A DNA stretch of 64,000 nt, taken from contig JAKPQL010000006.1 of assembly GCA_029547045.1 (NCBI GenBank), positions 1 to 64,000 of the forward strand. The letters are read 5' to 3'. The position numbers and the translations under genes are program-made. Shown here piece by piece: positions 45,043 to 51,233 of this stretch; position 1 is the first letter of the stretch; every line of letters begins with the position of its first letter. The stretch is from Deltaproteobacteria bacterium (GTDB taxonomy: Bacteria; Desulfobacterota; Desulfomonilia; UBA1062). The notes below the pieces were generated by a model that had not been told where the DNA came from, did no database searches, and was given only the letters and a program-made list of their open reading frames with translations.

Positions 45043-46062
45043 CTAGAGGTCCCTCCCCACGGCCTGGGCGATGCGCCGGACGCCTTCCATGACCTTCTTG
45101 AACTCAGCTGGCCTCAGCGACTGGGGTCCGTCGGACAGTGCCTCCTCGGGCCTGGGGTGCACCTCGATCATGAGCCCGTCAGCGCCCGCGGCGATGGCGG
45201 CGTACGACATGGCCTCCACGTAGCGGGCATGGCCGGTGCCGTGCGACGGGTCCACGATGACCGGGAGGTGGGTCTTCTCCTTGAGCACTGGCACAGCGGA
45301 CAGGTCCAGGGTGTTGCGTGTGGCGGTCTCGAAGGTGCGGATGCCCCGTTCGCACATGATCACCTGGCTGTTCCCTCCTGCCATGACATACTCGGCGGAC
45401 ATGAGAAACTCCTCGATGGTCGTGGACATGCCGCGCTTGAGCAGCACCGGCTTGTTCGTCCTGCCCACCTCCTTGAGGAGCTGGAAATTCTGGATGTTCC
45501 TGGCGCCGATCTGCAGACAGTCGGCATTCTCCAGGATGACCTCGATGCTGGCGATGTCCATGACCTCGGTGACCACGGGTATCTTGTACTCCTCCCTGGC
45601 CATGGACAGGAGGAGCAGGCCGTCGTTCTTCAGGCCCTGGAAGGCATACGGCGAGGTCCTGGGCTTGAACGCGCCGCCGCGCAGGATATGGCCGCCGCTC
45701 TCCTTGATGGCCCGGGCCACCTCCATGATCTGGTCCCTGGATTCCACGGCGCAGGGCCCCGCCATGACGGCGATCCGCCTGTTCCCCACCTTGACCCCCA
45801 TGCCCAGGTCCACCACGGTGGGCTCCGTCTTGGTCTCCCGGGACGCGAGCTTGTAGGGGCTCAGGATCCGGATGACCTTCTCCACCCCGGGCTGCGCCTC
45901 CAGGCACGTGAGGCGCTCCTTGCCGCGCTCGTCGCCCACCGCACCCAGCAGGGTCCGCTCGGATCCCACGCTCTCGTGGATGCGGTACCCGAAGGATTCG
46001 ATGAGCATCTTTACATGGTCGATCTGTTCCTGACTGGCTCCCTTTTTCATGGAAATAATCAC
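45043..46062 (-). CDS. aroF: 3-deoxy-7-phosphoheptulonate (DAHP) synthase, N-terminal ferredoxin-like domain type
   Basis: [65 protein letters not shown] start with aaggagg. Confidence 0.96.
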
Positions 46063-46118
46063 ACTGGCCTCCTTGTTGTTTTCGTGCCGTGTGTGTCATT
46101 CCCCGGGGCCATACAGGA

Positions 46119-46152
46119 AAAGGCCGTGGGGAGGTGACCACCCACGGCCTTT
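46119..46152 (-). terminator. Candidate attenuator terminator hairpin in the aroF leader (12-bp perfect stem)
   Basis: Minus strand: aaaggccgtggg-tggtcacctc-cccacggccttt followed by tcctg. Confidence 0.7.
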
Positions 46153-46171
46153 GTGTTCGCGTACGAACAGC

Positions 46172-46243
46172 TCAGCCCACAGGCGGCCACTCCCGAAACC
46201 AGAAATAATAGCCGAAATATGTGGATTCTGATGCCGTTCTCAT
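46172..46243 (-). CDS. Leader peptide MRTASESTYFGYYFWFREWPPVG of the aroF attenuator (not in supplied ORF list)
   Basis: 24 codons on minus strand, 8 of 11 consecutive residues Y/F/W, just upstream of a terminator-like hairpin and aroF. Confidence 0.72.
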   Translation of the reverse strand: MRTASESTYFGYYFWFREWPPVG

Positions 46244-46249
46244 GGCACG

Positions 46250-46278
46250 CTTATGCCAGACTTTTCACGTCAGGGCAA
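46250..46278 (-). promoter_or_regulatory. Possible promoter of the aroF leader (TTGCCC-17-CATAAG)
   Basis: 4/6 and 4/6 matches; predicted start about at the leader-peptide ATG. Confidence 0.35.
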
Positions 46279-46339
46279 GGGGAATTTCACAGCGGCAGGC
46301 TGTCCCCTGTCCATCCATGTCCTTGAATTCCCCATGAAG

Positions 46340-46500
46340 ATCTGGTAACACACCATCACCCTGCTGCAGATCCAAGGGAACCCGGTGAGAATCCGGGGCG
46401 GGGCCGCCGCTGTGAACGGGTAGTCCGGCCTGACAAGCCACTGCGGGAGCGGGAAGGCAAGGCCGGGAAGACACCGTGAGCCAGAAGACCTATCTGTGGT
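46340..46500 (+). ncRNA. Cobalamin (B12) riboswitch (boundaries approximate)
   Basis: aagggaacccggtgagaatccggggcggggccgccgctgtgaacggg ... gccactgcgggagcgggaaggc ... gccgggaagac ... gtgagccagaagacct consensus segments upstream of a TonB receptor. Confidence 0.93.
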
Positions 46501-46562
46501 ACGGACTACACCCGCGTGCCCGGGTGGAGACTCCAAGGGAATACTTCTCTGGAGGTGTCCAC

Positions 46563-48543: not shown

Positions 48544-49677
48544 ATGCTTGTCTTCAACACGGCCGGAGAATCGCACGGCCGCGGTGTCTTCGCCTTCCTG
48601 GACGGCCTGCCCGCAGGACTCGTGGTTGACAGGGAGCTCATTGACCGCGACCTGGCGCGCCGCCAGATGGGATACGGCAGGGGAGGCCGCATGGCCATCG
48701 AGAAGGACCGGGTGGACGTGCTCTGCGGCATCCGCGGCGGCCGCACCCTGGGCAGCCCCGTGCTTCTGGCCGTGTGGAACGCCGATTTCGAGAACTGGAA
48801 GGACCACATGGACCCCTGGTCCATCGCACCGGGCAGGGAACTCCACACACCCCGGCCCGGACACGCCGATCTGGCGGGCGCGGCCCGCTTCCGTCACCTT
48901 GACCTGCGCAACGTCCTGGAGCGCTCCAGCGCCCGCGAAACCGCGGGCCGGGTGGCAGCGGGGGGGCTGCTTCGGTCCTTCCTTGCAGCCCTGGGCGTGC
49001 ATGTCCACTCCTGGGTGACGCGGATCGGACAGGCGGTCTTCGAGGGACCCTATTCCCGGGAGCTGCTCGATGCATCCAGCGTGTTCTGCCCTGACCCGCA
49101 GGCGACCAAGGCCATGGAACAGGCCATAGACCAGGCTTACGAGCAGGGCGACTCCCTGGGAGGCGACTTCACGGTGGTGGTGTCCGGGCTCCCCGCGGGC
49201 ATCGGCTCGTACACCCAGTGGAACCAGCGCCTGGACGCCCTGCTCAGCATGCACCTCATGTCCATCCCGGCCATCAAGGCCGTGCAGATAGGAGCGGGCA
49301 TCGCATGCGGGGGGTTGCCCGGATCCCGGGTCCACGACCCCATCCTGCCCACCAGGCCCAGGTCCAGGCCCACCAACAATGCAGGCGGGCTGGAGGGAGG
49401 CATGTCGAACGGCGAGCCCGTCGTCCTCAGGTGCACCATGAAGCCCATCCCCACGCTCACCAGAGGGCTGCCCACCTTCGACATGCGCACCGGCGAGGAG
49501 ACCGCGGCACACTACGAGCGCTCGGACGTGTGCGCCGTGCCCGCGGCCTCTGTGGTTGGCGAGGCCATGACCATCATCGCAGTGACGGGGGCCATCCTGT
49601 CCGGGTTCTCCCAGCCGAGCATGGCCGCCCTCAGCCAGGCCTTTGCCGAGCAGAGACGGTTCTGGGAGGGTCTGTGA
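48544..49677 (+). CDS. aroC: Chorismate synthase
   Basis: FNTAGESHGRGVFAFLDGLPAGL; DLARRQMGYGRGGRMAIEKD; HADLAGAARF; ARETAGRVAAGGL. Confidence 0.97.
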   Translation: MLVFNTAGESHGRGVFAFLDGLPAGLVVDRELIDRDLARRQMGYGRGGRMAIEKDRVDVLCGIRGGRTLGSPVLLAVWNADFENWKDHMDPWSIAPGRELHTPRPGHADLAGAARFRHLDLRNVLERSSARETAGRVAAGGLLRSFLAALGVHVHSWVTRIGQAVFEGPYSRELLDASSVFCPDPQATKAMEQAIDQAYEQGDSLGGDFTVVVSGLPAGIGSYTQWNQRLDALLSMHLMSIPAIKAVQIGAGIACGGLPGSRVHDPILPTRPRSRPTNNAGGLEGGMSNGEPVVLRCTMKPIPTLTRGLPTFDMRTGEETAAHYERSDVCAVPAASVVGEAMTIIAVTGAILSGFSQPSMAALSQAFAEQRRFWEGL

Positions 49678-51233
49678 TCTTTCTCACCGGCTTCATGGGC
49701 TCCGGCAAGAGCACGGTGGGCAGGAAGCTCGCCCAGCGGCTCGACGTGCCCTTCATAGACCTGGACGAGGTCATCAGCACCAGGGCAGGCAGCAGCATCC
49801 GGGACATCTTCGCCTGCGCCGGAGAGTCCGCCTTCCGTGCCCTGGAACGCCAGGCGCTCCTCGACGTGGCCCTGTCCGAACATGATGCCGTGGTGGCCAC
49901 GGGCGGGGGGCTGCCCGTGGACCCTGCGAACCGCGCAGTCATGAAGGCATGCGGGTCCGTGGTGCACCTGAAGGCGTCCTTCGAAACACTGGCGGCACGC
50001 ATCCCCGAAGACCGGGGAAGGCCCCTGTGGGACGGCAACGCCCGGGACCTGCTGGAGAGCAGGACCCCGGCATACGAAGACGCCGATTTCACCGTGCACA
50101 CGGACGGCCTGGGGGTCCACGAGGCGGCGGAGGTCCTGGCTGACCAGGCCCGTTCCCTGCCCGCGCCCGTGCCGGTCCTGGTCCCCGCATCCCCGTACCC
50201 GGTGTATATCGGTCGCGGGATCTTCCCGGATATCCGGAAGTTAGTCCACCGCCACGTGCGGCCCGAGGGGATCTTCGTCATGGCGGACGAGAACGTGCTC
50301 GCGCACCACGGCACCACCATCCGTTCCAGCCTGTCCAGGACGAGGCACGCAGTCATGTCCGTCCCCTCGGGAGAGCAGTCAAAGTCGGCCCCCTTCCTCT
50401 TGAAGGTCCTGGACGAGATGTTCTCTGCCCAGGTGAACAGGCAGTGGATCTGCCTCGCCGTCGGCGGGGGCGTGACCGGTGACCTGGCCGCCTTCGCTGC
50501 CAGCATCTACATGCGCGGCATCCCGGTTGTCCAGGCTCCCACAACGCTCCTGGCCATGGTGGATTCCAGCATCGGCGGCAAGACCGGCATCGACGTGAGG
50601 CAGGGGAAGAACCTTGTGGGGACGTTCCACCAGCCGCTGCTGGTGCTCAGTGATCTGGACTTCCTCGCCACGCTGAATCCTGTGCTCACCAGGGACGCCA
50701 TGGCCGAGGTGGTGAAGTACGGCATCATCATGGACAGGCACCTGTTCGAGCACCTTGAGACGGAGGACGATCTCGATTACCACAGGGTCGTCCACCTGTG
50801 CGTTTCTGACAAGGCAGCCGTGGTGAGCAGGGACGAACGGGAAGGGGGCCTGCGGAGGATCCTGAACTTCGGCCATACCATGGGCCACGCCATGGAGCTG
50901 GCGCTTCACTACGAAACGAGCCACGGCCGGGCGGTTTCCGCTGGCATGTACTTCGCGGTGTGGCTCTCCCGGATCATGGGGCTCCTGGATCCGCGGGAGG
51001 CAGAGAGGGCCTTCCGGGTCATCAGGAAGTGGTCGTACCCGGTGGAGGAGCTCTCCTTCCCCCACCCGGACCACGTGGGCGCGGCGCTCGCCACGGACAA
51101 GAAATCCACCTCCGAAGGCATCCACTTTGTGTTGACTCCAGGCATCGGTGATGTTACCGTGAAAAAGCTCACTGGTTCTCAAATATTAGGTGCATATGGC
51201 CGGTTCGTCAGAGAAAGTGCAGAAGGCCTTTGA
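49674..51233 (+). CDS. aroKB: Bifunctional shikimate kinase / 3-dehydroquinate synthase fusion
   Basis: GTG start at 49674; IFLTGFMGSGKSTVGRKLAQRL...ATGGGLPV (AroK) followed in frame by IPSGEQSKS-type VPSGEQSKSAPFLL, AVGGGVTGDLAAFAASIYMRGIPVVQAPTTLLAMVDSSIGGKTGID (AroB). Confidence 0.96.
   Translation: MIFLTGFMGSGKSTVGRKLAQRLDVPFIDLDEVISTRAGSSIRDIFACAGESAFRALERQALLDVALSEHDAVVATGGGLPVDPANRAVMKACGSVVHLKASFETLAARIPEDRGRPLWDGNARDLLESRTPAYEDADFTVHTDGLGVHEAAEVLADQARSLPAPVPVLVPASPYPVYIGRGIFPDIRKLVHRHVRPEGIFVMADENVLAHHGTTIRSSLSRTRHAVMSVPSGEQSKSAPFLLKVLDEMFSAQVNRQWICLAVGGGVTGDLAAFAASIYMRGIPVVQAPTTLLAMVDSSIGGKTGIDVRQGKNLVGTFHQPLLVLSDLDFLATLNPVLTRDAMAEVVKYGIIMDRHLFEHLETEDDLDYHRVVHLCVSDKAAVVSRDEREGGLRRILNFGHTMGHAMELALHYETSHGRAVSAGMYFAVWLSRIMGLLDPREAERAFRVIRKWSYPVEELSFPHPDHVGAALATDKKSTSEGIHFVLTPGIGDVTVKKLTGSQILGAYGRFVRESAEGL

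Follow-up and report, generated by a model that had tools for sequence, protein, structure and literature searches.

In the classical trpL and pheL attenuators, a short leader ORF carries codons for the one amino acid that is sensed, and the transcript can pair in three ways, through segments 1:2, 2:3 or 3:4; enteric trpL and pheL leaders have a Shine-Dalgarno sequence. The aroF leader that we describe here shares the cognate codons, the 2:3 and 3:4 pairings and a possible 1:2 pairing with this classical design, but mixes codons for Tyr, Phe and Trp and lacks an Rfam match. Attenuation of Escherichia coli aroF was hypothesised in 1980, as cited in PMC8632094. One close described counterpart is the Corynebacterium glutamicum aroR leader, in which a Phe-Tyr-Phe run is reported to respond to limitation of Phe, not of Tyr (Neshat et al. 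2014; PMC11802643; PMC4046766). There, as we propose here, an aromatic leader peptide precedes a DAHP synthase operon under ribosome-mediated attenuation, although, compared by description, the run given in those accounts is shorter, Trp is not mentioned in it, and the phylum is unrelated. The uORFC-13-1 motif is a predicted attenuator of Acholeplasma aroF, likewise with a uORF containing Phe codon(s), a terminator and then aroF; it differs, by its description, in that its U-run encodes at least one Phe, a ribosome-binding site is present, and it is confined to Acholeplasma and environmental sequences (PMC8632094). Also obtained by comparative genomics is the attenuation-type uORFC-8-2 of Rhodobacterales cysS, with cysteine codons and another gene and structure (PMC8632094). 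Finally, leaderless attenuator leaders, whose ORF begins at the 5′ end of the transcript, are known from Sinorhizobium meliloti trpL (PMC7298713) and Streptomyces lividans (PMC8079986); these sense Trp, Leu and others, belong to other phyla and have mapped starts, whereas the comparable start in our element is predicted.

The locus lies in a 64,000-nucleotide stretch of DNA (the window), where all features discussed below are on the minus strand unless otherwise stated. The gene aroF (45043..46062) encodes a type I-beta DAHP synthase with an N-terminal ferredoxin-like regulatory domain (PF00793, PF18152, PRK08673), close in sequence to the Thermotoga maritima enzyme (PDB 1rzm/3pg9). It starts with GTG at 46062 behind the Shine-Dalgarno sequence AAGGAGG (46068..46074), in agreement with an earlier note on this DNA, which had been made from the sequence alone and had proposed an attenuator upstream of the gene. 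Rereading of the minus strand also returned, exactly as that note had given them, the coordinates and the peptide of a leader ORF at 46172..46243, MRTASESTYFGYYFWFREWPPVG followed by a stop codon. Eight of 11 consecutive residues in its core are aromatic, as had been claimed; no other ORF of 12–50 amino acids in the window, whichever the strand, has more than five, and across 20 dinucleotide shuffles of the window the maximum per 11 residues never exceeded five, so a chance origin of the ORF is negligible. The run Y F G Y Y F W F (codons 9–16, 46196..46219), with its mixture of Tyr, Phe and Trp codons, would be the site at which a ribosome is expected to stall.

Conservation of the leader was assessed in 24 genomes of the order, the genomes that we compared being mostly draft assemblies; an orthologous aroF was found in 20 of the 24, with readable upstream DNA in 19. 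All 19 have a leader of 23–27 codons with 6–9 aromatics in 11, followed by the same terminator. The earlier note had staked its reading on the run and the hairpin not being lost where aroF is kept, and both are present in each of these orthologs. Fifteen leaders have 24 codons; in these, Tyr or Phe almost always occupies positions 9, 10, 12, 13, 14 and 16, with exchange between TAT/TAC and TTT/TTC, and position 15 is Trp in 14 of the 15. Insertions and deletions within the ORF are multiples of three, and those in the spacer after the stop have other lengths. This exchange of Tyr for Phe, together with the in-frame indels, indicates a constraint on coding beyond one on the RNA alone. As in attenuators of the trp and phe type, a short ORF with codons for the product, kept under coding constraint, lies upstream of the gene. 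The 3′ end of the leader is among the most conserved stretches, its PPVG ending being very conserved.

No convincing Shine-Dalgarno sequence precedes the leader ATG in any of the 19 order members, unlike aroF, whose own is strong in nearly all. Instead, a promoter-like pattern, TTGNNN-17-CATATA, ends 6–8 nucleotides before the ATG and is the top-scoring site in 18 of the 19; in the remaining member (L005), a -10 at the same distance ranks second among scored sites. In the window, the predicted -35 is TTGCCC (46273..46278; TTG at this place in 19/19), separated by 17 nucleotides from a predicted extended -10, TGG-CATAAG (46250..46255), which lies 6 nucleotides 5′ of the ATG at 46243 and places the predicted transcript start at about 46244–46243. 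Mean upstream identity among the order members is 0.63 from the ATG to the -35 and drops to 0.26 beyond it. On the basis of the promoter position, the end of conservation at the -35 and the missing Shine-Dalgarno sequence, the mRNA is probably leaderless and begins at the ATG, a feature that the earlier note had overlooked; promoter position and Shine-Dalgarno absence are in keeping with this predicted start in nearly all members. A generic promoter and terminator scan of 46050–46420 called neither: its limits exclude the loop and the U-run found here, and the -10 reads CATAAG. Comparative evidence was used in its place. Three distant members of the phylum (L023, L072 and L077) have a Shine-Dalgarno sequence and an apparent 5′ UTR instead.

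Between the leader and aroF, again as in trp- and phe-type attenuators, lies an intrinsic terminator hairpin in all 19 orthologs (46118..46152 with its U-run, comprising segments 3 and 4). The 12-bp stem that had been noted, AAAGGCCGUGGG/CCCACGGCCUUU (46152..46119), is indeed perfect and scores z = -5.9 against shuffles, and its T-run is short, with UUUU followed by CC; outside the nearest species the relatives mostly have 5–7 U. The helix is almost invariant, with 99% of cells paired in the alignment of 19 leaders. On its 3′ side, a GGCCC(T/C)GGG-type block (46100–46112), also found in relatives, could pair with the 3′ arm of the terminator, and at the position of this block four distant relatives (L023, L024, L027 and L032) have a full second terminator.

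A competing helix joins segment 2, the last leader codons up to the stop (GUGGCCGCCUGUGGGCU, 46174..46190), to segment 3, the 5′ arm and loop of the terminator (AGGCCGUGGGUGGUCAC, 46134..46150). Its core pairs GUGGCCGCCUGUGG (46190..46177) with CCGUGGGUGGUCAC (46147..46134) and continues, past a one-base mismatch (or a bulge, in another register), into a short extension that encloses the hairpin GUUCG-UACG-CGAAC (46155..46168). The earlier note was right about a competing helix and about the enclosed hairpin but placed the helix in a different register: its pairing of GCCTGT with ACAAAGGC was set aside, as the folds choose 46190..46177 with 46147..46134 and it is this helix that covaries. The helix is present in all 19 leaders, with 91% of cells paired and four pairs changed on both sides; the pairs at its outer end vary between GC, UA, AU and GU alternatives, and the enclosed hairpin is 88% paired with two pairs changed on both sides. 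Helix and hairpin together are 90.6% paired, against 34–48% for slid versions, and their covariation of 0.168 exceeds that of shuffled alignments (0.121 ± 0.011; 0/500), which ignore relatedness. As this covariation sits at the loop end, in outer pairs that involve the terminator loop, the terminator alone offers no explanation for it. Covariation, slide controls and folds thus agree on an antiterminator that uses the 3′ end of the leader and excludes the terminator. These parts, their conservation and the covariation of the competing helix can be read directly from the sequences.

A further candidate helix, between segment 1 at the start of the ORF (46220..46238) and segment 2 (for example, CCACA:UGUGG), corresponds to the 1:2 helix that in trp- and phe-type attenuators frees the terminator if translation is absent; it has a duplex energy below that of shuffles (mean z -2.8 over the 19 sequences), although its register shifts between species and it is weak in L018. 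Folding energies in the window are -32.4 kcal/mol for the antiterminator and -23.7 kcal/mol for the terminator. Simple simulations of the nascent RNA support a switch: with a ribosome placed midway along the aromatic run and the RNA ending just short of the 3′ arm of the terminator, 2:3 had a probability of 1.0 in 19/19. In untranslated nascent RNA, 2:3 still formed in more than half of the members. When the complete transcript was folded at equilibrium with a stalled ribosome, results were mixed and the terminator was often favoured, which means that the switch would have to be kinetic.

We consider a ribosome-mediated transcription attenuator controlling aroF to be the best explanation, with a probability of roughly 0.9. 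From the parts above we infer the start site, translation, stalling and termination, and likewise the sensing of any one of the three amino acids. Transcription would start at the leader ATG or a few nucleotides 5′ of it, with the ribosome loading directly on the leaderless mRNA. When aromatic aminoacyl-tRNAs are plentiful, the ribosome would pass the Tyr/Phe/Trp run and reach the stop, covering segment 2, such that the terminator 3:4 could form and RNA polymerase would stop before aroF. Under a shortage of charged Tyr-, Phe- or Trp-tRNA, the ribosome would instead stall in the run, and segment 2, left uncovered, would pair with the newly made segment 3, which would prevent the terminator and allow transcription of aroF. 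The attenuation proposed in the earlier note is thus supported by conservation in 19/19 and by a covarying competing helix, its function being read from these features. That one of the two DAHP synthases of the genome has the element and the other does not also speaks for it; counting against it are the short U-run of the window (4 U), the frequent preference for the terminator at equilibrium and the variability of helix 1:2.

Conserved helices, a terminator and a highly conserved leader 3′ end would also be expected of a metabolite riboswitch or protein-binding leader that senses an aromatic compound, with the ORF incidental. We regard this as very unlikely, given that the aromatic run is kept at the level of amino acids, through Tyr/Phe exchange and in-frame indels, and that the codon content of related leaders varies with the downstream gene; nor does the element match any Rfam riboswitch or T-box or adopt a compact aptamer-like fold. 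The very conserved PPVG ending could alternatively speak for a small peptide acting in trans, for which S. meliloti peTrpL is a precedent (PMC7298713), beside a constitutive terminator, aroF being attenuated weakly if at all. However, RNA pairing explains the conservation of the PPVG codons, which overlap one strand of the antiterminator; the antiterminator covaries, and more distant leaders end otherwise (VCPS, GLPMG) with the hairpin changing along, which together make a trans-acting peptide, if anything, the less likely of these two. The idea that the hairpin does no more than terminate a neighbouring gene at its 3′ end, beside a chance ORF, has next to nothing in its favour beyond the fact that such hairpins are common between genes: the neighbour is divergent, so that no minus-strand gene upstream could end there, a chance ORF is negligible, and conservation of the ORF in 19/19 relatives refutes the idea.

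Rfam contains no counterpart of the element. In the window it has no Rfam match at gathering score; Trp_leader, Phe_leader and other curated leader models gave nothing above it, the T-box covariance model matched neither the window nor twelve loci, and a permissive Rfam search of those twelve loci returned nothing above family cut-off. We took the sub-threshold labels STnc420, Thr_leader (E 0.76, in L013 only), MIR8008, HIV_FS2 and Xist as chance. Aromatic leader control in this bacterial group was found neither in Rfam nor in the literature searched, which included few subscription papers. This kind of attenuator is known, and what appear to be new are its aroF member, the mixed Y/F/W codons and its spread.

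To follow that spread, we used a covariance model, R1, built from the 19 order leaders. It refinds the element in the same genomes with E values of 1e-24 to 1e-37, as expected by construction, and also detects, elsewhere in the order and phylum, similarly built elements whose codons differ. Within the order, iorA (indolepyruvate ferredoxin oxidoreductase alpha, TIGR03336) is preceded by Tyr/Phe leaders such as MKTMAVTRSYYYGFYFSRGGCP, closed by a stop codon; TTGAC starts 36–40 nucleotides 5′ of the ATG in 17/17, and none of the 17 has a Shine-Dalgarno sequence beyond one weak AGGA. These Tyr/Phe-rich leaders (L047–L050, L059–L062, L066, L126, L127 and L129–L134) come with GGCCATGGGC-type terminators. 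This arrangement suggests that the oxidoreductase is under aromatic-shortage control and serves synthesis or salvage, not breakdown. Phe-only leaders, for example one ending in SSSFFFFFG and a stop, precede with a terminator a LivJ-like periplasmic binding protein (PF13458), with FFFF or FFFFF in L051–L057 and L065, from which we would predict that Phe or a phenyl compound is taken up; one Tyr leader (L058) precedes another ABC binding protein, and leuA is preceded by a Leu leader. Elsewhere in the phylum, a leuA leader in L166 has, by eye, Leu/Val/Ile codons.

In other families of the phylum, aromatic leaders stand before ADTH synthase (2-amino-3,7-dideoxy-D-threo-hept-6-ulosonate synthase; TIGR01949 in L160 and L164), which catalyses the alternative first step of aromatic synthesis (L146, L153, L155, L156, L160, L164 and L168); 3-dehydroquinate synthase II comes next in L164. 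A leader precedes a shikimate kinase-like gene and then chorismate synthase in L144, and likewise by eye in L151; the leaders of ADTH synthase and shikimate kinase contain Y/F/W codons. Other DAHP synthases (L154, L161) and an aminotransferase (L158) have leaders as well, and two aromatic leader–terminator units occur in tandem in L150 (283–586) and in L162. In the upstream regions of 50 distant aroF homologues, taken from the top of a similarity list and thus a non-random sample, 26 reach at least seven aromatics in 11, where shuffles would lead one to expect 0.12, and about a quarter score four or fewer, like shuffles. The match between leader codons and gene function across this wider set, which the earlier note had missed, lends independent support to attenuation.

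At somewhat better than even odds, we propose that these elements form an uncatalogued, phylum-wide family of aromatic attenuators, which would sense any aromatic amino acid at pathway entry (DAHP or ADTH synthase) and extend in the order, where they would be leaderless, to iorA and uptake systems. The aroF attenuator stands out for its mixed Y/F/W codons, its predicted leaderless start and its wide spread: the committed aromatic step would be under mixed Tyr/Phe/Trp leader control that is conserved throughout the order and, in modified form, widespread in the phylum. If this is true, leader codons could be read as a label of the substrate of the downstream gene and predict the substrates and direction of unknown genes, the Phe-only leader before the LivJ-like protein and an indolepyruvate oxidoreductase for synthesis rather than breakdown being examples. 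Such predictions for transporters and indolepyruvate oxidoreductase in uncultured anaerobes are testable. With the element, nature also provides a case for testing whether a single leader can answer three amino acids, as compared with C. glutamicum, in which Phe is reported to elicit a response and Tyr is not.

The genome has two DAHP synthases and the leader at only one, the copy on C34 being without it; a third DAHP-family match (C115) reads by eye as KDO-8-P synthase and was rejected. In L138 (genome G010), the aroF ortholog lacks PF18152 and retains leader and attenuator, which reads as loss of the feedback domain with the putative transcriptional control kept. A cobalamin riboswitch (46351–46511, plus strand; RF00174, 89 bits), which is arranged head to head with the leader of aroF, precedes a TonB-type receptor, and such a riboswitch also adjoins aroF in L005, L008, L013 and L020. 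Near aroF on the opposite strand (48544–51233, plus), a chorismate synthase-like ORF is followed by one that, by eye, resembles a fusion of shikimate kinase and 3-dehydroquinate synthase. A scan of named genomes gave eight loci: two same-order members, five Firmicutes and one unrelated match; L034 and L035 are relatives deposited as 'Deltaproteobacteria bacterium'. The five Firmicutes loci (L036–L040, from Thermincola, Thermosyntropha and others, with UBA2595 named only as Firmicutes) have a different upstream pattern before aroF, in which repeated GTAGGATGGTAGG-like blocks lie 5′ of a terminator-like hairpin, an element distinct from the aroF leader of the window.
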